From contig ONEJ01000018.1 of assembly GCA_900316805.1 (NCBI GenBank), positions 1 to 36,608 on the forward strand: a stretch of 36,608 nucleotides of DNA, read 5' to 3'. This stretch comes from an uncultured Lachnospiraceae bacterium (lineage in GTDB: Bacteria; Bacillota; Clostridia; Lachnospirales; Lachnospiraceae). A program made the position numbers and the translations under genes. The notes below the pieces were generated by a model. It was not told the DNA's origin. It worked only from the letters and a program-made list of their open reading frames with translations, and ran no database searches. Below, one piece after another: positions 7,808-29,983 of the stretch; the first letter of the stretch is position 1, and each line of letters begins with the position of its first letter.

Positions 7808-7865
7808 ACCATGAAGTTGTAAAAGTTGCAGACATAATCGAGATGAGGAAGAGGGAGTGATTGTT

Positions 7866-8582
7866 ATGGCAGAGGCGCAGGATGTTGGCCAGATGGTGGA
7901 AACCGTTTTGGCGGATTATGAAAAAGGAAGGGATATTGATGCAATTAATATCTACAATAAACCGGATCGGGAAGAGGTCCGGACTTTAGTTCGTGAACTG
8001 TTCCGTATTGTTTTCCCGGGATATTTTAAGGACAAATCGGTAAAAATCTATAATCCGAAAAACACGATGGCGGTGGTAATGGAAAACGTGTATTACCATC
8101 TCCGCAAACAGGTGTTGCTGGCATTGGATTTTTGTAAGAGACGGGGTACCCTGACCGAGGAGGAGCGGAAAGAGGAGAGTGAATCCATCTGCCGTAAATT
8201 CTTCGAAAAGCTGCCAGTTGTCCGGGAGTATGTAGAGACAGATCTGCAGGCGGCTTTTGACGGAGATCCGGCGGCGGGGTGTAAGGAGGAAATCATTCTG
8301 GCTTATCCGGGACTGACGGCTTCTACCATCAACCGGACGGCCCATGAACTGTATTTATTGAAGGTACCTGTTTTGCCGAGAATCATGACAGAGTATGCCC
8401 ACTCCGTTACGGGGATTGACATTCACCCCGGAGCAACCATAGGAAAGTATTTTTTCATTGATCATGGAACCGGTATTGTGATTGGGGAGACAGCGATGAG
8501 TGGTATTACATTATTTAAAATCGTTGACATCGTATCAGAAACATGCTATTCTTTTACAAAGCATAGTATTCATATTAAATAA
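7866..8582 (+). CDS. cysE: Serine O-acetyltransferase (EpsC/CysE type), C-terminally truncated, probable pseudogene
   Basis: Serine acetyltransferases make O-acetylserine from serine and acetyl-CoA, the first step of cysteine synthesis. Residues 1-210 match the EpsC-type enzyme: helical N-terminus, TASTINRTAHELY, HSVTGIDIHPGATIG, then FFIDHGTGIVIGETA with the catalytic Asp-His pair at 199-200. At ~residue 211 (about base 8496) homology stops. The remaining 28 residues are unrelated and are read through a second promoter region. About one third of the left-handed beta-helix, including much of the acetyl-CoA site, is missing, so activity is doubtful. ATG 7866 follows AGGGAG; GTG 7857 is an alternative start. 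The cyanobacterial srp locus also pairs a serine acetyltransferase with the encapsulin SrpI. Confidence 0.85.
   Translation: MAEAQDVGQMVETVLADYEKGRDIDAINIYNKPDREEVRTLVRELFRIVFPGYFKDKSVKIYNPKNTMAVVMENVYYHLRKQVLLALDFCKRRGTLTEEERKEESESICRKFFEKLPVVREYVETDLQAAFDGDPAAGCKEEIILAYPGLTASTINRTAHELYLLKVPVLPRIMTEYAHSVTGIDIHPGATIGKYFFIDHGTGIVIGETAMSGITLFKIVDIVSETCYSFTKHSIHIK
8524..8552 (+). promoter_or_regulatory. Promoter of the yezD-like gene
   Basis: TTGACA (8524-8529), 17-bp spacer, TATTCT (8547-8552). It lies inside the out-of-family 3' end of the truncated cysE frame, which supports the idea that a deletion fused cysE to the upstream region of another transcription unit. Confidence 0.65.
8562..8579 (+). 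promoter_or_regulatory. Candidate sulfur-regulator operator, copy 2
   Basis: CATAGTA-TT-CATATTAAA begins 10 bases after the -10 element, nearly the same distance as copy 1 (9 bases at 7604). Two substitutions in the central and right part separate it from the other copies. Confidence 0.45.
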
Positions 8583-8611: not shown

Positions 8612-8752
8612 ATGTCGGATGAAAGGAAAAATTATCTTGACGTGATCGATAATCTGGTGAGGCAGATGAAGTTTGGAACCGTCACCATTATCGTACAGGA
8701 TGGAAAAGTGATACAAATTGATAAAACAGATAAAATACGATTAAAAAACTGA
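8612..8752 (+). CDS. YezD-like small protein (DUF2292)
   Basis: A 46-residue protein with the DUF2292 pattern: an N-terminal helix, then FGTVTIIVQDGKVIQIDKTDKIRL. The family is usually found beside sulfur-assimilation and cysteine genes in Firmicutes; its biochemical role is unknown. GGGGGTGAGG upstream is a strong RBS. It is followed within 10 bases by a terminator. Its own promoter and the shared operator fit the cysteine regulon. Confidence 0.8.
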   Translation: MSDERKNYLDVIDNLVRQMKFGTVTIIVQDGKVIQIDKTDKIRLKN

Positions 8753-8823: not shown

Positions 8824-8888
8824 GATGCTGTGGCCGTTGGCATAGGCTTGCAACGCCGAAGATGTTGGTTCGAGTCCAACCAGTATCG
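8824..8888 (+). tRNA. Shortened tRNA-Cys-like sequence (anticodon GCA), possibly a non-canonical or degenerate tRNA
   Basis: The ends fold as a tRNA. Acceptor GATGCTG (8824-8830) pairs with CAGTATC (8881-8887, one G.U), with discriminator G8888. The T-arm is perfect: GTTGG, loop TTCGAGT, CCAAC (8864-8880). In the middle, TAGGC-TTGCAAC-GCCGA (8843-8859) forms a 17-base arm with one A.G mismatch and a 7-base loop presenting GCA, a Cys anticodon. That leaves only GCC-GTT-GGC (8833-8841) for the D-arm. Alternatively GGC 8845-8847 completes a normal D-arm whose loop contains TTGG, and the anticodon stem is then incomplete. Total length of 65 is about 8 bases short. CCA is not encoded. It may be a minimal tRNA-Cys tied to the sulfur locus or a tRNA damaged by a small deletion between GGC repeats. 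Confidence 0.5.
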
Positions 8889-8934
8889 CTAGTACAGCGT
8901 TATTGGTTCAGTTATTTACGAAACGCTGTACTTG
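8889..8934 (+). repeat. Solo/remnant MITE end sequence
   Basis: Starts with CTAGTACAGCGTT (8889-8901), the same 13 bases as 13802-13814. The segment 8909-8932 is the exact reverse complement of 13804-13827. GTACAGCGTT and AACGCTGTAC (8892-8901, 8922-8931) pair as a 10-bp hairpin. It looks like the two ends of the 13.8-kb MITE brought together by internal deletion. It abuts the tRNA-like 3' end and runs into the upstream region of the JAMM gene. Confidence 0.65.
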
Positions 8935-8952
8935 GAAAGGAAGTGTTATGAG

Positions 8953-9384
8953 TTGCTTGTCTTTCTAAATGGAACAAAAGACCAGATGATACTGCAGGCA
9001 GTAAAGGATTATCCCGAGGAATGCTGTGGTGTTCTAGTGGGACAATGTACCCACGGGATTCGAAACGTTACCAGAGTAATTCCGGTAAGAAATGAAAAGC
9101 TTACGGGAAAAAGTACCGGTTTTGCCATAGAGCCGCTGGTAATAATGGAAATCGAGGAGGAAGCAGTGGAAAATGGGCAGGAAATTATTGGCTTTTATCA
9201 TTCCCATCCGGACTATCGGGCAGAATTGTCTACTGAGGATGAAAAGTACATGATTCCGGATCTGTCCTATCCGATTATGTCTGTTCAAAAGGGCAGCTGC
9301 CGGGAACTGGTCAGTTATGTGAAGAAAAGTCAGCGGGAGGAAATGATTTTCCGGGAAGAAACACGGAAATTTAATTTGAGCTGA
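8953..9384 (+). CDS. JAMM/M67 family metallopeptidase (Mec/CysO-cysteine peptidase-like)
   Basis: A compact 143-residue zinc peptidase of the MPN+/JAMM family. An early Glu pair lies in EECCGVLVG, and the catalytic block is YHSHPDYRAELSTED: HxHP, seven residues, Ser, two residues, Asp, all present. In Mycobacterium tuberculosis a relative (Mec) releases cysteine from the carrier CysO. Here the next gene encodes a CysO/ThiS-like carrier fused to its activating enzyme, so release of cysteine or processing of the fusion is a reasonable inference. The start is uncertain: TTG 8953 lies 9 bases after GGAAAGGAAG, TTG 8932 is also in frame, and ATG 8948 is out of frame. The MITE remnant probably reshaped the 5' end. 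Confidence 0.85.
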   Translation: MLVFLNGTKDQMILQAVKDYPEECCGVLVGQCTHGIRNVTRVIPVRNEKLTGKSTGFAIEPLVIMEIEEEAVENGQEIIGFYHSHPDYRAELSTEDEKYMIPDLSYPIMSVQKGSCRELVSYVKKSQREEMIFREETRKFNLS

Positions 9385-9394
9385 CGTCTATAAT

Positions 9395-9466
9395 CTGTGA
9401 TACATCGAAACCGTACCATGGGGGCAGCCCATTTGGCGGAGGTAGATTTTTCATGGGCTGACGTCT
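9395..9466 (+). repeat. Structured intergenic repeat, copy A
   Basis: Between the JAMM and ThiS-ThiF genes. A weak first hairpin (GATACAT...GTACC) is followed by a strong one, CAGCCCAT (9425-9432) with ATGGGCTG (9453-9460). The loop 9433-9455 matches the loop of copy B (15517-15539) at 19 of 23 bases, while the stem bases differ. GCTGACGTCT occurs directly repeated at 9380-9389 and 9457-9466. It ends just before the RBS of the next gene. It could be a mobile small repeat or a cis-acting RNA. Confidence 0.5.
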
Positions 9467-9484
9467 TAAGAAGGAGGAAAACAA

Positions 9485-10942
9485 ATGAGTGTTACGGTAT
9501 ACGTGTCGGCTACGCTCCGGGTTTTTGTCAATCGGAATCAGGAGCTTAAAGCCCGGGGAAACACTATAAAGGAAGTGTTGGAAAACTTAAGGGACGAGTA
9601 CCCGGAACTGGAAAAGGCATTATTTGAGGAGGATGGCAGGATCCGTCCCTTTGTGGCAGTGTATGTCAATGAAAAGAATGTTACCGGGCAGCAGGAGACC
9701 GCCCTACAGGAGGGAGATATCTTAAGGCTTCTTCCTGCCATTGCAGGAGGAGCACCGGTTACCAGCGTGATTTCCGATGAGAGACGAAAGGAAATTGCCT
9801 TGGATGATAAAGAAATCGAGCGGTACAACAAGCATTTGATGCTTCGGGAAATCAGTGTCAAGGGACAGAAAAGAATACGGGCGGCTCGTGTGGTGGTTAT
9901 CGGATTAGGAGCATTGGGCTCTCCGGTGATTCAGTATCTGGCTGCTGCCGGTGTGGGGACTCTTGGGATTATTGATTTTGATGAGGTTTCTCTGGGAAAT
10001 CTTCAAAGTCAGGTGATTCACGGCACCCGGGATGTCAACCGGCCGAAAATTGCTTCCGCCAGAGACGGTATCCGTGCCATTAACCCCTCCGTGAAGGTTG
10101 TGGCGGAAAAGGTCAAGGTGGATGCTGACAATATTGAGGAGTTCATCGAGGATTATGATATTGTGGTGGATTGTACGGACAATTATAAGTCCCGGTATCT
10201 CATCAACGATGCCTGTGTGCTTTTAAAGAAGCCACTGGTATTTGGCGCAATCTATCAGTATGAAGGGCAGGTCAGCGTGTTTGATACAAAGCAGGGACCC
10301 TGCTACCGCTGCCAGTTTCCGGCTCCGCCGCCGGCAGGGCTGGTACCAACCTGCGCGGAGGGAGGAACCATCAGTCCTCTGGCGGGAATCGTGGGGAGTT
10401 TTCAGGCCAATGAAGTGCTGAAGTTGATCATTGGCGGAGGCGAGAGTCTGGTGGGAAAGATGCTGGTCATCGACACTTGGAATCTGCACACCTCCATCCT
10501 GCAGGTGGAGAAAAATGAAGCCTGCCCCCTTTGCGGCAGCCATCCATCAATCCTTGAGGTGGAGGATTTTGACTACGAAGATTTCTGCGGACTCAAGGAG
10601 GAAGAGACAGAAATTCCGGTAGAGGGAATTGAAGCGGATGATCTGGCAGACCGCATTGAGCGGGGAGATCCCATGACCATTGTGGATGTGAGAGAGCCTC
10701 ATGAAAGAGCCATCCAGCGGTTCCCCAATGCAATCGTGATCCCCATTGGGCAGCTGGTGAGACGTATGAAGGAACTGGATCCGGATGTGGACACCATCTT
10801 TGTCTGCCGGGAGGGAAAGCGAAGTATTCTCGCCATCAACACGCTGAGGGAGGCCGGTTACAAAGGACCCATGTATAATCTGAAGGGAGGTATCGAGGCA
10901 GCCAAAAATATTATCTTCTCCAACGAAGGTGCATGGCTGTAA
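9485..10942 (+). CDS. ThiS/CysO-like sulfur carrier - ThiF/MoeB E1-like - rhodanese fusion protein
   Basis: A 485-residue three-domain fusion. Residues 1-89 are a beta-grasp carrier ending in the di-glycine AIAGG (Gly88-Gly89). It is followed immediately by Ala-Pro and a ThiF/MoeB adenylyltransferase: ATP-binding GLGALG (140-145), zinc cysteines 273, 276, 347 and 350, and Cys290 in PTCAEGG. Residues ~380-480 are a rhodanese domain with active-site Cys441 in CREGKR. The order equals CysO plus MoeZ joined in one chain: the enzyme would adenylate the carrier tail and the rhodanese would deliver sulfur as a thiocarboxylate. The tail is blocked by the fusion, so cleavage after Gly89 seems required. 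A very strong RBS (AAGGAGG) precedes it. Upstream JAMM, downstream encapsulin and desulfurase. Confidence 0.93.
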   Translation: MSVTVYVSATLRVFVNRNQELKARGNTIKEVLENLRDEYPELEKALFEEDGRIRPFVAVYVNEKNVTGQQETALQEGDILRLLPAIAGGAPVTSVISDERRKEIALDDKEIERYNKHLMLREISVKGQKRIRAARVVVIGLGALGSPVIQYLAAAGVGTLGIIDFDEVSLGNLQSQVIHGTRDVNRPKIASARDGIRAINPSVKVVAEKVKVDADNIEEFIEDYDIVVDCTDNYKSRYLINDACVLLKKPLVFGAIYQYEGQVSVFDTKQGPCYRCQFPAPPPAGLVPTCAEGGTISPLAGIVGSFQANEVLKLIIGGGESLVGKMLVIDTWNLHTSILQVEKNEACPLCGSHPSILEVEDFDYEDFCGLKEEETEIPVEGIEADDLADRIERGDPMTIVDVREPHERAIQRFPNAIVIPIGQLVRRMKELDPDVDTIFVCREGKRSILAINTLREAGYKGPMYNLKGGIEAAKNIIFSNEGAWL

Positions 10943-11038
10943 GTTTAGCAGAAAGTAACTATCCGGATTTATCAGGAACACGGGCACGGATGGATACAAG
11001 ATACATAAAAATAATTTTCACCCAGGAGGTAAAAGCAA

Positions 11039-11989
11039 ATGTCAAAAGAAGAACAACAGGGAATTAACGCATTGGGAGCACAGGCCGCTTATAATCTGGC
11101 CAATGTGACCAAAACAAAACCGCAGTACCGGGCAATCACACCAAAGTGGCTGACAAAACTGCTGGAATTCAAGGGGCTGGAAACCGGAATTTATCGTGTC
11201 AATAAGGTGGTTGAGGGAGATACGCCGCTGGATGTACTCTGCAGCCAGACCAAGAAATCAGATATTATTCCGGATGGATACGTGGAGTATGAAACAGAGC
11301 CAAGAGAGTATCGTCTGAATTCCATTTCCACCATCATCAACGTAAATACGGCAATTGAGGATGTGTACAGTTCTCCCTACGATCAGGTCAAGACCCAGCT
11401 GGAACTGGCCATTGAAAGCTTGAGAGAGCGTCAGGAAAGCCAGCTCATCAATAACGATGATTACGGACTTCTGAAGAATATTCCGGAGTCCCAGCATATC
11501 CAGACCAGAAACGGTGCACCAACGCCGGATGATCTGGATGAACTGATTACCAAGGTATGGAAGGAGCCGTCTTTCTTCTTAGCACATCCCAAAGCTATTG
11601 CAGCATTTGAGAGAGAATGCACCAAGCGTGGAGTACCGCCTGTAACTGTAAATATTGCAGGGGGCACATTCATTACCTGGAGAGGAATTCCGATCATTCC
11701 AACAGATAAGCTTCTGGTGGATGGTTTGAAGGAGCCTAAGAGTCAGAGTGGTAAGACCAACATTCTTCTGCTTAGAACCGGCGAGGCAAAGCGCGGTGTC
11801 ATCGGCCTTTATCAGGCAGGCATGAAGAACGAACAGTCCAGAGGACTTTCCGTAAGATTCCGCGGAATTGATGACAAGGGAGTTGCTTCCTATCTTCTGT
11901 CCTTATACTGCTCAGCAGCTATACTTGCAGATGATGCAATTGCAGTGTTAGAGGATGTTGAGGTAGGTGAGTACTATGATTACGAATAA
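11039..11989 (+). CDS. Family 2A encapsulin shell protein (SrpI-like)
   Basis: A 316-residue HK97-fold capsid-like protein of encapsulin Family 2A. Recognisable family blocks are LGAQAAYNLANVTKTKPQY near the N-terminus, YRLNSISTIINVNTAIEDVYSSPYDQ, the LRERQESQLINN helix, and the C-terminal RFRGIDDKGVASYLLSLYCS. Family 2A shells form icosahedral compartments around a cysteine desulfurase (Synechococcus SrpI and Acinetobacter systems are studied), and sulfur storage has been shown for the latter. The AGGAGG RBS is ideal. The downstream desulfurase gene overlaps the stop by 14 bases, so shell and cargo are coupled. No cyclic-nucleotide-binding insertion is seen, which separates it from Family 2B. 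Confidence 0.92.
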   Translation: MSKEEQQGINALGAQAAYNLANVTKTKPQYRAITPKWLTKLLEFKGLETGIYRVNKVVEGDTPLDVLCSQTKKSDIIPDGYVEYETEPREYRLNSISTIINVNTAIEDVYSSPYDQVKTQLELAIESLRERQESQLINNDDYGLLKNIPESQHIQTRNGAPTPDDLDELITKVWKEPSFFLAHPKAIAAFERECTKRGVPPVTVNIAGGTFITWRGIPIIPTDKLLVDGLKEPKSQSGKTNILLLRTGEAKRGVIGLYQAGMKNEQSRGLSVRFRGIDDKGVASYLLSLYCSAAILADDAIAVLEDVEVGEYYDYE

Positions 11990-13685
11990 TTACATCGGGT
12001 CTGCCGCCGACTACGGGCTTCCCTCGGAGGAGGAACTGGCGGGGCTTGCCGGTCAGCTTCTGACGGATATCGACGGGAGCCTTTTCGAGCCGGAGGTGTG
12101 TGCGGATGGCATTGAAAATCTGGTCACATCCGGAGATACCGGGGTTATCGATACCGCTGCCGGAAAAGCGGGGAAAGTTTTTGGTGAGCTTGGCGTATCC
12201 GATTTTCTGCAGATTGCTGAGGAACTGAAGGAGCCGCAGGTATCGCAGATTTCACAGATTTCACAGGTACCGGCAGGCACATCCTTCCCGCTGCAGGCGT
12301 CAACCGCGGAAGGATATGCGCCGCATGTGGTATCTCAGAAAGAAGCGGAAGAGATAGGTTCCGTCGAAGCCCGGACCACTGCTCTGGATCACAACGTCAT
12401 TCCAGAGCAGGAACTGGCAGGCGGTGGGGAAACGCATACGGTAGGCGGACAGAAAAACAATGGACAGATCGTGGTGGGAACAAAGACGCTGGAGCAGATC
12501 CGTCAGGATTTTCCAATGTTGCAGGAGAAAGTCAACGGCAATCCTTTGATCTGGCTGGATAATGGTGCCACCACCCAGCGGCCCCGGCAGGTGATCGACC
12601 GCCTGTCCTACTATTATGAGCATGAAAATTCCAATGTACACAGAGGTGCCCATACCATGGCGGCAAAGTCCACAGATGCCTACGAGGGGGCAAGACAGAT
12701 TGTAGCAGATTTTATCGGCGCACCCTCGAAGGACAATATAGTTTTCGTCCGGGGCACTACGGAAGCCATCAATCTGGTGGCACATTCCTATGTGAAGCCG
12801 CTGCTGCAGCCGGGGGATGAGATCATCGTTTCTCTTTTGGAGCATCATGCCAACATTGTGCCCTGGCAGCTGATAGCCCAGGAGACAGGCGCAGTCATCA
12901 AGGTCATTCCTGTGGATGACAGCGGACAGATCATTCTCTCGGAGTACGAGAAGCTGTTCAGCAAACGGACAAAATTTGTTTCCGTCACCCATGTTTCCAA
13001 TGTGCTGGGAACCATTACACCGGTAGCGGAAATGGTGGCCATTGCCCACAGACACGGCGTGCGGATTCTCATTGACGGTGCACAGTCCATCGCCCACATT
13101 CCGGTGAATGTCACGGTGTTGGATGCAGACTTCTTTGCTTTTTCCGGTCATAAGGTATACGCGCCTACAGGAATCGGTGCCCTGTATGGGAAGAAGGATG
13201 CCCTTGAGGAGGCAAAACCTTATCACGGCGGCGGCAACATGATTGCGGATGTGACCTTTGAGCGTACTATTTATAATCCGGCACCCAATAAATTTGAGGC
13301 GGGCACTGCCAGTATCGGTGATGCGGTAGCCCTGGGTGAGGCGTTAAAGTATGTGAGTCAGATCGGCATTGCCGCCATCGGTCAGTATGAGCATGAGCTG
13401 GTGGCTTACGGCATGAAAGAACTGGGGAAAATTGATGGTCTTCACTTGATCGGTACCGCCAGAGAGAAATCCAGTGCGCTTTCCTTCGTGCTGGATGGAA
13501 CCACCATCGAAGCTGTGGGGCAGCAGCTGGATCAGCTGGGGATTGCCGTGCGGGTGGGACACCACTGTGCACAGCCGATTCTCCGCCATTATGGTCTGGA
13601 AGGCGTTGTCCGGCCGACCCTTGCGGTGTACAACACACCGGAGGATATTGAGGCACTGGTGAAGGGGATTCGGTCGATTCGGTAG
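11976..13685 (+). CDS. Cysteine desulfurase (SufS/CsdA-like), encapsulin cargo with N-terminal extension
   Basis: A PLP enzyme that takes sulfur from cysteine, giving alanine and an enzyme persulfide. Residues ~171-569 are a complete SufS-type domain: IRQDFPML, LDNGATTQ, NVHRGAHTMA, LLEHHANIVPWQ, IDGAQS, FSGHK with PLP Lys393, RVGHHCAQP with catalytic Cys531. Residues 1-170 are an additional low-complexity, acidic, Gly/Ser/Pro-containing tail, as in Family 2A encapsulin cargo, where the disordered N-terminus directs packaging. It includes a QIS-repeat (QVSQISQISQ, 88-97). ATG 11976 was chosen; GTG 11967 is in frame. It overlaps the encapsulin stop and ends before a strong terminator, closing the operon. 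Confidence 0.94.
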   Translation: MITNNYIGSAADYGLPSEEELAGLAGQLLTDIDGSLFEPEVCADGIENLVTSGDTGVIDTAAGKAGKVFGELGVSDFLQIAEELKEPQVSQISQISQVPAGTSFPLQASTAEGYAPHVVSQKEAEEIGSVEARTTALDHNVIPEQELAGGGETHTVGGQKNNGQIVVGTKTLEQIRQDFPMLQEKVNGNPLIWLDNGATTQRPRQVIDRLSYYYEHENSNVHRGAHTMAAKSTDAYEGARQIVADFIGAPSKDNIVFVRGTTEAINLVAHSYVKPLLQPGDEIIVSLLEHHANIVPWQLIAQETGAVIKVIPVDDSGQIILSEYEKLFSKRTKFVSVTHVSNVLGTITPVAEMVAIAHRHGVRILIDGAQSIAHIPVNVTVLDADFFAFSGHKVYAPTGIGALYGKKDALEEAKPYHGGGNMIADVTFERTIYNPAPNKFEAGTASIGDAVALGEALKYVSQIGIAAIGQYEHELVAYGMKELGKIDGLHLIGTAREKSSALSFVLDGTTIEAVGQQLDQLGIAVRVGHHCAQPILRHYGLEGVVRPTLAVYNTPEDIEALVKGIRSIR

Positions 13686-13724
13686 TTCGCCGCACCTACA
13701 ATTTGATATTTATTTTCAGTTACG

Positions 13725-13763
13725 ATCCCCGGGATGCAGAAGTTGTGTCCCGGGGATTTTTTT
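13725..13763 (+). terminator. Intrinsic terminator of the encapsulin-desulfurase operon
   Basis: ATCCCCGGGA (13725-13734), 13-base loop, TCCCGGGGAT (13748-13757), then seven T: a perfect 10-bp GC-rich stem. Confidence 0.92.
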
Positions 13764-13801: not shown

Positions 13802-13967
13802 CTAGTACAGCGTTTCGTAAATAACTGGATCAATAACGTAGAATATTACTTCCAGTGTGCATGTCAAAAAACGTAGGCGTAGCGGGCTACGTCGAGGCTT
13901 TTTGACATGTGCAATGGGAGAAATAGGCAAGTTATTTGATCTAGTTATTTCGAAAACGCTGTACTAG
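13802..13967. mobile_element. 166-bp MITE with inverted ends
   Basis: Terminal inverted repeats 13803-13826 and 13943-13966 agree at about 20 of 24 bases, and both ends carry CTAG (13802-13805, 13964-13967), a possible target duplication. The interior holds a long hairpin: CATGTCAAAAA (13860-13870) with TTTTTGACATG (13899-13909) and an inner CGTAG/CTACG. There is no coding capacity. CTAGTACAG recurs at the right boundary, as if insertion hit a related end. A deleted relative lies at 8889-8934. Confidence 0.75.
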
Positions 13968-21259: not shown

Positions 21260-22026
21260 ATGGCAAAGAAAGAGAACAGATTTAAAGATTACGATATCAC
21301 AACCCAGGCAATCCACACAGGCACAGATTATGATAAGGAGACCGGAGCTGTGCGAAGATTGCCCACGAAAATGGTGCGATCCTGTCCGTAGACAACACCT
21401 TTGCCTCTCCTTATAATCAGAGACCGCTGGATTTTGGGGCGGATTTTGTGGTAGAGTCTGTGACAAAATATATCAATGGACACGGAGATGCCCAGGGAGA
21501 TGCCATCATTTCTAATGATCTTGAGATGATGGACCGCATCCGTTATGAGGCGCAGGTCAATGTGGACTCCGTCATCAGCCCCTTTAATGCATGGCAGATT
21601 ATTCGCGGCTCCGTCACTTTTCCGATTCGTATGGACAGAATCAACCAGTCGGCACTAAAAATTGCCCAGTGGCTGGAACAGAGAGAAAATGTGACCTTCG
21701 TTTCCTATCCGGGACTGAAAAGTAATGACAGCTATGAGACGGCTAAGAAGCAGATGCATCATGGATTTGGCGGCGTGATCTCCTTTGGCTTGAATACCGA
21801 TGACAAAACGGTGGAGCATTTCTGCGCCGCCCTGAAGGTTGTGACCTTTGCGGTTTCCCTCGGCCATGATGAGAGCTTGATTTTCCCGCAGCCCAGTTAT
21901 GATGAGCGGATTAACCTGTATCCGGAGAAATTCCGGAAGGGCTTTATCCGTTTCAGCGTAGGGCTTGAGGATGCGGATGACATTATCGGGGATCTGGATC
22001 AGGCATTGCAGGCTGTGGGATTATGA
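21260..22026 (+). pseudogene. Transsulfuration-family PLP enzyme (O-acetylhomoserine sulfhydrylase / gamma-lyase type), internally deleted and frameshifted
   Basis: ATG 21260 opens a frame whose first ~33 residues match the family N-terminus (YDITTQAIHTGTDYDKETGAV). It then shifts and stops at TAG 21389-21391. From about 21358 another frame carries the middle and C-terminal parts: IAHENGAILSVDNTFASPYNQ, the PLP lysine in SVTKYINGHGDAQG, and a complete C-terminal domain to 22026. Roughly 130 residues between these parts, including much of the PLP-binding domain, are gone. Such enzymes make or break homocysteine, cysteine or methionine using sulfide, so this gene fits the sulfur regulon. The exact substrate cannot be told. 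Confidence 0.85.
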
Positions 22027-29778: not shown

Positions 29779-29800
29779 AGTAACGTATAAATGAACAGGA

Positions 29801-29934
29801 ATTCTTCGGGGCAGGGTGATACAGCAGCAATACATACTGTAGATTCCCGACCGACGGTATAGTCCGTGAACTGCCTTGGCAGCCGAACCGGTGAGATTCC
29901 GGTACCGACAGTATAGTCTGGATGAGAGAAGAAA
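29801..29934 (+). ncRNA. FMN riboswitch (RFN element)
   Basis: The conserved RFN core is visible: GGGGCAGGGTGA near the 5' end, GATTCCCGACCG, GGTATAGTCC, CCGGTGAGATTCCGGTACCGACAG in two parts, and a final GGATG. P1 pairs TTCTTC (29802-29807) with GAAGAA (29928-29933). FMN binding would favour the terminator at 29984-30016 and shut off ribU. Confidence 0.95.
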
Positions 29935-29983
29935 ACATCAGTTGGATCTGCTGGCTGCAGGTCTGTTATAAGCATGATGAGAA

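Follow-up and report, generated by a model that had tools for sequence, protein, structure and literature searches.

Among the accessory genes of Family 2A encapsulin operons, those for rhodaneses and serine acetyltransferases are the most enriched, and a co-regulated rhodanese at the exterior of the shell has been proposed as the acceptor of its sulfur (Andreas and Giessen 2021; PMC8346489). The cargo of these shells is loaded by an N-terminal domain, whose two motifs are reported for most, though not all, cargos, and the system is induced by sulfur starvation (Nichols and others; PMC8049743). In this report we describe a locus in which such a shell gene and that of a SufS-type desulfurase adjoin a gene fusing a sulfur-carrier domain, a ThiF-type activating enzyme (E1) and a rhodanese. 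It lies on contig ONEJ01000018.1 (36,608 nucleotides) of assembly GCA_900316805.1, from an uncultured Lachnospiraceae bacterium. The whole contig (C67) was analysed and is called the window; the assembly comprises 2.25 Mb in 103 contigs and is 82% complete.

Precedents for the fused protein come from carrier-based sulfur metabolism. Operons combining a carrier, an E1-rhodanese and a JAB peptidase with cysteine and homocysteine genes were described by Iyer and others in 2006 (PMC1779556), and the source of the sulfur borne by the carrier CysO was called unknown in 2011 (PMC3227635). A JAMM peptidase cuts a MoaD-MoaE fusion, leaving a C-terminal glycine, and such fusions are said to need JAMM cutting (PMC8832034). 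At the locus described here, shell, desulfurase cargo and fused carrier, E1 and rhodanese are a conserved genetic unit. From these genes we propose, with a probability of about 0.5, a shell-coupled sulfur relay that would run from the encapsulated desulfurase to the rhodanese of the fusion, on to a carrier thiocarboxylate and finally to cysteine and homocysteine.

A four-gene operon and its conservation

Four consecutive plus-strand genes occupy positions 8953-13685 of the window, in the order JAMM peptidase, carrier/ThiF-E1/rhodanese fusion, Family 2A shell and SufS-type desulfurase:

8953-9384, plus strand: JAMM/MPN+ (Prok-JAB) metallopeptidase with an HSHx7SxxD motif and a TTG start
9485-10942, plus strand: carrier-E1-rhodanese fusion, 485 residues
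9485-9751, plus strand: CysO/MoaD-type beta-grasp domain of the fusion, with Gly-Gly at 9746-9751
9824-10528, plus strand: ThiF/MoeB E1 domain of the fusion
10634-10900, plus strand: rhodanese domain of the fusion, with a CREGKRS loop
11039-11989, plus strand: Family 2A encapsulin shell protein (SrpI-like), 316 residues
11976-13685, plus strand: SufS-type cysteine desulfurase with a shell-cargo-like N-terminal extension (about 11976-12470)
13566-13568, plus strand: codon, within GHHCAQP, of what we take from SufS to be the persulfide cysteine of the desulfurase
13724-13758, plus strand: intrinsic-terminator-like hairpin of 16 pairs followed by a T run, downstream of the operon

This anatomy had been sketched in a first-pass annotation, and it is borne out: all four genes are present on the plus strand with a domain profile match for each, the last two overlap by the 14 bases it gave (the shell ends at 11989 and the cargo ATG stands at 11976), and the closing terminator it named is a terminator-like hairpin, recognised by its match to the consensus only. 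The frame of the JAMM gene opens with a TTG at 8932, and the TTG at 8953, behind GGAAAGGAAG, is a plausible start and the one already chosen in that annotation.

A fusion-first search of 84,980 species genomes gave 116 loci, of which the best 80 were kept; its patterns were derived from the query and favour near relatives, and some contigs stand under two labels (for example L029/L040, L024/L086, L028/L065 and L033/L035). Counts out of 80 use loci L034-L113 only, and those out of 81, 42, 67 and 70 include the window. The shell gene is the next gene downstream of the fusion in 78 of the 80 loci (median gap 59 nucleotides, maximum 180, window included), and the contigs of the remaining two end at most 22 nucleotides from the fusion, so that all 78 contigs running past the fusion carry the shell. 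The cargo gene follows that of the shell, and the order of fusion, shell and cargo is constant. Clustering of the fusions at 95% identity, with the window among them, leaves 71 groups; a shell accompanies 70, and the remaining one is one of the two cut contigs. A chance neighbourhood was rejected on the strength of the 78/78 linkage. The co-occurrence with the shell on which the first-pass annotation had staked its proposal is thus general among these loci for the fusion, and frequent for the JAMM gene, which lies upstream of the fusion in 66 of the 80 at a median distance of 4 nucleotides. The arrangement recurs in genomes labelled Lachnospiraceae, Ruminococcus and Veillonellaceae, many from rumen samples, and named isolates with it include Pseudobutyrivibrio xylanivorans MZ8 and Lachnospiraceae bacterium AB2028; some organism labels of metagenome-assembled genomes (Fibrobacter, planctomycete, proteobacterium) are as deposited and doubtful.

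To offset the bias of the fusion query, a shell-first census was made, with PF19307 in a class and a family set of genomes and NF041162 in a phylum set. Shell-bearing genomes numbered 7 of 391, 10 of 397 and 7 of 398 in the class, family and phylum sets (21 different in all), and the fusion stands beside the shell in 11 of these 21 Bacillota genomes. All ten shell-bearing genomes of the family sample have the fusion, in G461 with the pieces on two contigs. The census looked for the fusion in the neighbourhood of the shell and, for the class set, in whole genomes, where whole-fusion matches were found in 2 of the 391, both with a shell. One genome of another class holds, in a row, a second-type JAMM, sulfite reductase, TusA, MetY, fusion, shell, cargo and serine acetyltransferase. 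In a tree of 41 of the 87 shell rows, made up of every third fusion locus whose shell scores above 500 bits, a number of selected outliers and the ten fusion-less rows, the sampled fusion-linked shells form one clade with support of 100/99, and the simplest reading of the sequences is that the link between fusion and shell arose once and was then kept.

Components of the unit

Within the fusion, residues 6-89 match ThiS, 114-348 ThiF and 384-472 rhodanese. The best solved relatives of the carrier domain (residues 1-92) are 4n6e_B, a ThiS/MoaD protein, and 3dwg_C, which we take to be CysO. The fusion passes the moaD_arch model (54.8 bits, cut-off 49.5), no thiS model stands among the best 25 of its 27 curated-model matches, and by these likenesses its carrier is CysO-like, whereas the second-set carrier of L048, the only one tested, passes the thiS model. 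The E1 domain also resembles MoeB and Uba4, and the curated cut-off for MoeZ is missed (PRK07878, 368.6 bits against 647). Cys273, Cys276, Cys290, Cys347 and the rhodanese Cys441 are invariant in 28 of 28 sequences and Cys350 is nearly so; judging by MoeB and rhodanese these are presumably the zinc pairs, the E1 cysteine and the rhodanese cysteine, and the fusion is an E1 with a C-terminal rhodanese whose active cysteines are kept.

Gly88-Gly89 of the carrier is invariant in 81 of 81 sequences and internal, being followed by a linker and the E1 domain, and the encoded fusion lacks the free C-terminal Gly-Gly of the CysO-MoeZ-Mec pathway. What follows the Gly-Gly differs between these sequences in residue type and in length, and the linker is fairly conserved within the main clade. 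Adenylation of a carrier requires a free C-terminal glycine, and since the invariant Gly-Gly is internal the carrier must probably be cut free of the fusion. The same internal position suggests a maturation role for the JAMM peptidase, which perhaps makes this cut. The product of the JAMM gene matches Prok-JAB at 59.3 bits, and HSHx7SxxD, in agreement with the HxHx7SxxD of the CysO-MoeZ-Mec pathway, is kept in 65 of 67 JAMMs.

The shell protein passes NF041162 (495.5 bits, cut-off 380), matches PF19307 at 317.2 bits and aligns with SrpI, 6x8m_A, at an E-value of 4.4e-112. At 316 residues, with the SrpI-like domain as its sole Pfam match, it is without an internal domain binding cyclic nucleotide monophosphates, and the Family 2B model reaches 382.3 bits, below its cut-off of 400; both the curated score and the absence of the nucleotide-binding domain place it in Family 2A. 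The cargo passes the SufS model TIGR01979 (535.5 bits, cut-off 475.1), and HHCAQP is kept in 69 of 70 cargos. The first loading motif (LARLANEFFS-like) appears in the window as LAGLAG, and the loose pattern L..[LWIMF]A[NGS] occurs in 60 of 70 cargos, a count given without a background rate. The window desulfurase would, by its sequence, be a Family 2A cargo with a diverged extension. The longest open frames of shell and cargo overlap in 72 of 73 scored pairs, most often by 23 bases. Separately, a Y.P.V.S motif, a pattern chosen after viewing the alignment, stands in 56 of 70 cargo N-termini in place of the YYFL of the second loading motif, and is perhaps a different docking peptide.

Companion genes and sulfur genes elsewhere

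Companion genes were counted in the 42 loci with more than 5 kb to the left and more than 6 kb to the right of the fusion. A JAMM gene stands directly upstream in 38 of these wide loci, MetY is present in 33, serine acetyltransferase in 32, TusA in 31, a second ThiS-ThiF-JAMM set in 30 and CysK in 10; the acetyltransferases of the window and of L034 are remnants. Many relatives have a ThiS-ThiF-JAMM-MetY group near the operon, with the families checked on L048 only. In the HcyS/HcyF/HcyD-MetY system of Wolinella, a protein-thiocarboxylate route to homocysteine, a carrier with residues beyond Gly-Gly occurs together with ThiF, JAMM and MetY. The second carriers of our loci, picked by a C-terminal MGG(G), most commonly end with one residue added after GGG (R in 20, Q in 4 and C in 3).

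The flanks of the operon in the window hold the following features, none of them mentioned in the first-pass annotation:

7857-8582, plus strand: remnant of a serine O-acetyltransferase (EpsC/CysE type), covering positions 1-91 of a 162-position model, with the last third missing
8612-8749, plus strand: DUF2292 / YezD-OscA-like protein of 46 residues (PF10055, 59.7 bits; OscA model 32.4 bits, below the cut-off of 85)
8824-8889, plus strand: tRNA-Cys(GCA)-like RNA of a distinct conserved family, without encoded CCA and with discriminator G
8898-8935, no strand: partial copy of a dispersed palindromic repeat, of which 8898-8932 is 94% complementary to 13804-13838
13802-13967, no strand: palindromic repeat of 166 bp resembling a miniature inverted-repeat transposable element (MITE)

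The acetyltransferase of the window is, from its truncation, probably inactive, and contig C89 of this genome holds a full-length one (316 residues). Encoded on contig C75 are a ThiF protein, a MetY-type enzyme, a sulfite/nitrite-reductase-type protein and CysK (TIGR01139, 450.2 bits), together with ThiS-, TusA-, thioredoxin- and sulfate-transporter-like frames named by likeness of their translations only; no JAMM was seen on that stretch. No CysK or CysM gene lies within the operon; the CysK gene is that of C75, and cysM was not searched genome-wide. As a side observation, the acetyltransferase and shell genes of L034 both carry internal deletions, for which decay and assembly fault are indistinguishable.

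A proposed sulfur relay

The relay would begin with the desulfurase packed in the shell by its N-terminal extension, a mode of loading known for a relative and assumed here from homology, where it would strip sulfur from cysteine by known chemistry. The fusion's rhodanese domain, sitting at the shell or outside it, would accept the resulting sulfane sulfur. The JAMM peptidase may cut the fusion after the internal Gly-Gly, as in the precedent of MoaD-MoaE, to give a carrier with a C-terminal glycine; the ThiF-type domain would adenylate this freed glycine, and the rhodanese sulfur would turn it into a thiocarboxylate, as is known for MoeZ and CysO. From the carrier the sulfur would pass to activated serine or homoserine, giving cysteine or homocysteine, and the JAMM peptidase may in addition detach the amino acid from the carrier, as Mec does with CysO-Cys. 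Overall, sulfur from cysteine that is imported or stored would reach newly made cysteine and methionine under control, with no free sulfide formed on the way. Both the flow of sulfur along this path and its direction we infer from gene content and conserved residues. A narrower form of the proposal, which we advance only tentatively, is a dedicated protein-thiocarboxylate outlet, in which JAMM would free the carrier at Gly89, the tethered rhodanese would take the sulfur of the encapsulated desulfurase, and the carrier would be shared by cysteine and homocysteine synthesis.

Several observations weigh against the relay. In the window itself only a remnant of the acetyltransferase is left, and the operon has neither a cysteine nor a homocysteine synthase in intact form next to it. 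The cargo falls below the Family 2A cargo model NF041166 (758.7 bits, cut-off 800), YYFL of the second published loading motif, AASPYYFLDG, occurs in 0 of 70 cargos, and of four further Aminotran_5 proteins in the genome (160-310 bits) some may be other desulfurases. L034, the closest relative, has a broken shell gene lacking residues 72-285, through real loss or an assembly fault, and G672, the sample's other member of the genus, lacks a shell, so that the distribution is patchy. The first-pass annotation had made its case depend on fusion and peptidase standing beside encapsulins in related genomes; for the fusion this holds in the family sample (ten of ten) and mostly fails outside it, ten of the 21 shell-bearing Bacillota genomes being without a fusion beside the shell. 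The fusion is therefore not needed for Family 2 shells in general; upstream sequence falls short of 1 kb in two of these ten loci, and the shell frames of L018 and L019, at 475-478 residues, may belong to Family 2B. The JAMM gene is missing upstream in 14 of 80 loci, four of which have less than 1 kb of upstream sequence; among the ten real absences (at least 1 kb upstream) seven have a second JAMM and three show none in the available stretch. JAMM was rejected as an obligatory component on account of these ten, and it is a usual, not a universal, part of the locus.

Two further points concern selection and thiamine. In codon comparisons with four relatives, where made, amino-acid changes are fewer than silent ones in fusion, shell and cargo and, less markedly, in JAMM. 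Because the silent sites are almost saturated and the remnant acetyltransferase leans the same way, this is weak evidence that cannot separate a working gene from one lately broken. A thiS-thiG cluster, with neighbouring thiH and thiE named from translations, lies apart from the fusion on contig C77, and a role of the fusion in thiamine alone was rejected on that ground. No ThiF was found on the 8-kb stretch around this cluster, and the fusion or the ThiF of C75 could also charge its ThiS, so that a side job in thiamine synthesis is possible. Of the alternative named in the first-pass annotation, a fusion acting solely for thiamine or molybdopterin, the thiamine-only part is thus unlikely.

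Alternative readings overlap with the relay and with one another; they are not mutually exclusive, and the likelihoods we attach to them do not sum to 1. Shell and desulfurase might only store or detoxify sulfur, with the fusion serving another acceptor (molybdopterin, thiamine or tRNA thiolation) and sharing the operon through regulation. The ten shell loci without a fusion, the MoeB- and Uba4-like traits of the E1, the lack of a ThiF near the thiamine ThiS of C77 and the DUF2292 gene near the operon in the window and in at least six of the 80 loci all fit such a module; we regard it as unlikely, however, given that the order of fusion, shell and cargo is constant, in one clade, across genomes with three kinds of label, that the companions are cysteine and homocysteine genes and that the thiamine genes are distant from the operon. 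Methionine might also be the real sink, a reading that overlaps the relay: the fusion, together with the second ThiS-ThiF-JAMM set, would convey cysteine sulfur to MetY, bypassing cystathionine. MetY, the second set and TusA are all frequent in the wide loci, the residue that the second carriers add after GGG would need trimming, and the genome has MetY, ThiF and a sulfite/nitrite-reductase protein of its own on C75. The presence of MetY in 33 of 42 wide loci points to homocysteine as at least one sink; that it should be the real one is improbable in our judgement, for the acetyltransferase of 32 wide loci (two of them remnants) and the CysO-like carrier point to cysteine too, neither synthase is intact near the window operon and the C75 stretch shows no JAMM.

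The carrier might, on the other hand, be a vestigial or purely regulatory domain of an E1-rhodanese, never cut free. A ubiquitin-like-ThiF fusion occurs with a separate ThiS in other operons (PMC1779556), the linker behind Gly-Gly shows fair conservation across the main clade, and ten loci with enough sequence have no JAMM upstream; a Gly-Gly kept in every one of 81 sequences while the residues behind it vary in type and length, and a JAMM gene lying a median of 4 nucleotides away in 66 of 80 loci, make an uncut carrier decidedly improbable. Least probable of all is the two-way cysteine/sulfur buffer of the first-pass annotation, in which the shell would hold sulfur from cysteine until the same carrier brought it back to cysteine. 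A buffer would suit the frequent presence of serine acetyltransferase nearby and the elemental sulfur that Benisch and others are said to have reported in Family 2A shells in 2024. Each turn from cysteine to cysteine would cost ATP, spent for nothing unless the two opposite states required are separated in time; the window acetyltransferase is truncated, MetY accompanies 33 of 42 wide loci, and we do not find the buffer supported. One-way delivery to cysteine and homocysteine is likelier, and delivery from imported cystine or stored sulfur is favoured because it fits the companion genes better. If the relay is true, it would suggest a sulfur donor for the CysO-type carrier pathway, and a protein compartment would have a dedicated protein-thiocarboxylate outlet.

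Flanking RNA, repeats and neighbouring genes

The DUF2292 / YezD-OscA-like family is, by the names of its models, apparently linked to sulfur starvation, and its gene lies directly upstream of the JAMM gene in at least six of the 80 loci. Next to it in the window, the RNA at 8824-8889 belongs to a distinct tRNA-Cys-like family with members at L034:9480-9550, L026:7977-8047, L040:9335-9406 and in L203-L216. With a covariance model built from eight copies, and strong copies defined as those of 72 bits or more, 17 of 397 family genomes have strong copies, below which a gap extends to 60 bits, where ordinary tRNAs were assumed to begin. An alignment of 22 copies (21 distinct) has standard pairs in 99.5% of pair cells and shows 35 two-sided changes where shuffling gives a mean of 8.9, a lean towards pairing that is built in by finding the copies with a tRNA-shaped model. 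None of the 17 strong copies encodes CCA; the discriminator is A or G, and the anticodon is GCA, except for ACA in L026, with two GCA, two CAT and one eight-base loop among five further aligned copies. Each of the 17 has a DUF2292, CysK-like, MetY-like, JAMM/fusion or (by translation) metK-like gene no more than about 3 kb away; for ten of them a DUF2292 gene, and for 12 a CysK-like gene, lies inside 3 kb, and most adjoin cysK, metK-like or MetY-like genes. A role specific to the encapsulin system was rejected, as strong copies occur in 4 of 10 shell-bearing and 13 of 387 shell-less family genomes.

Cysteinyl-tRNA synthetase prefers U73, and since the discriminator here is A or G ordinary charging with cysteine is doubtful; the RNA is possibly a sulfur-responsive or non-translational tRNA. 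No description of this family came up in a single search of openly available papers. In L203, L204, L205, L207-L212 and L215 many tRNA-like genes cluster with cysK, often together with DUF2292, NifB-like radical SAM, FeMo-cofactor-domain and NifH-like proteins, named by translation with the families tested on L211 only; this cluster may be a nitrogenase-like sulfur-salvage locus.

The palindrome flanking the operon matches the genome 22 times when both strands are counted, for the most part incompletely; the matches fall on 15 contigs, several at contig ends. The element was treated as an ordinary dispersed repeat, and the operon as a mobile unit carried by it was rejected on that dispersal; no transposase search was made. 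Further along the window, 21346-22026 encodes the C-terminal part of a Cys/Met pyridoxal phosphate enzyme (profile positions 158-381 of 381) in an apparently 5'-truncated gene, and a flavin mononucleotide riboswitch (96.7 bits) lies at 29798-29937.

Comparison with known systems

In the titles and abstract lines of the openly available papers listed by literature searches, without supplements, no description of a fused-carrier/shell operon was found, nor in such titles and abstract lines one of a protein compartment with a protein-thiocarboxylate outlet; a search of openly available papers yielded none linking encapsulins with Lachnospiraceae. In the present clade a single polypeptide unites a shell-adjacent rhodanese with an activating enzyme and a carrier, and the question of what accepts shell sulfur becomes testable with four genes in E. 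coli.

As far as the accessible parts of the sources go, one close likeness is to the Family 2A SrpI-CyD systems (Nichols 2021; Andreas and Giessen 2021), which share the adjoining shell and SufS-type cargo genes, the extended cargo N-terminus, and serine acetyltransferase and rhodanese as accessory genes; here, by contrast, E1, rhodanese and CysO-like carrier are parts of one covalent chain, a JAMM gene is usually present as well and the cargos are without YYFL. The actinobacterial CysO-MoeZ-CysM-Mec pathway has in common a CysO-like carrier, an E1 with rhodanese and a JAMM peptidase, whereas at our locus carrier and E1 form one polypeptide with an internal Gly-Gly, shell and desulfurase genes adjoin, and no CysM gene lies in the operon. 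The operons of Iyer, Burroughs and Aravind 2006 (rows 4b-4e; PMC1779556) comprise the same three protein types, a ubiquitin-like protein, an E1-rhodanese and a JAB peptidase, in some subtypes beside genes for cysteine synthase, O-acetylhomoserine sulfhydrylase, SirA and sulfite reductase; in the accessible parts of that paper neither a shell gene nor a triple fusion of carrier, E1 and rhodanese is named. Finally, the action of the Deinococcus peptidase DRJAMM on MoaD-MoaE (PMC8832034) offers the same layout, a carrier fused ahead of its partner and a JAMM cut that leaves a C-terminal glycine, the difference being that the partner here is an activating enzyme, not a synthase, and that the cutting is predicted only.

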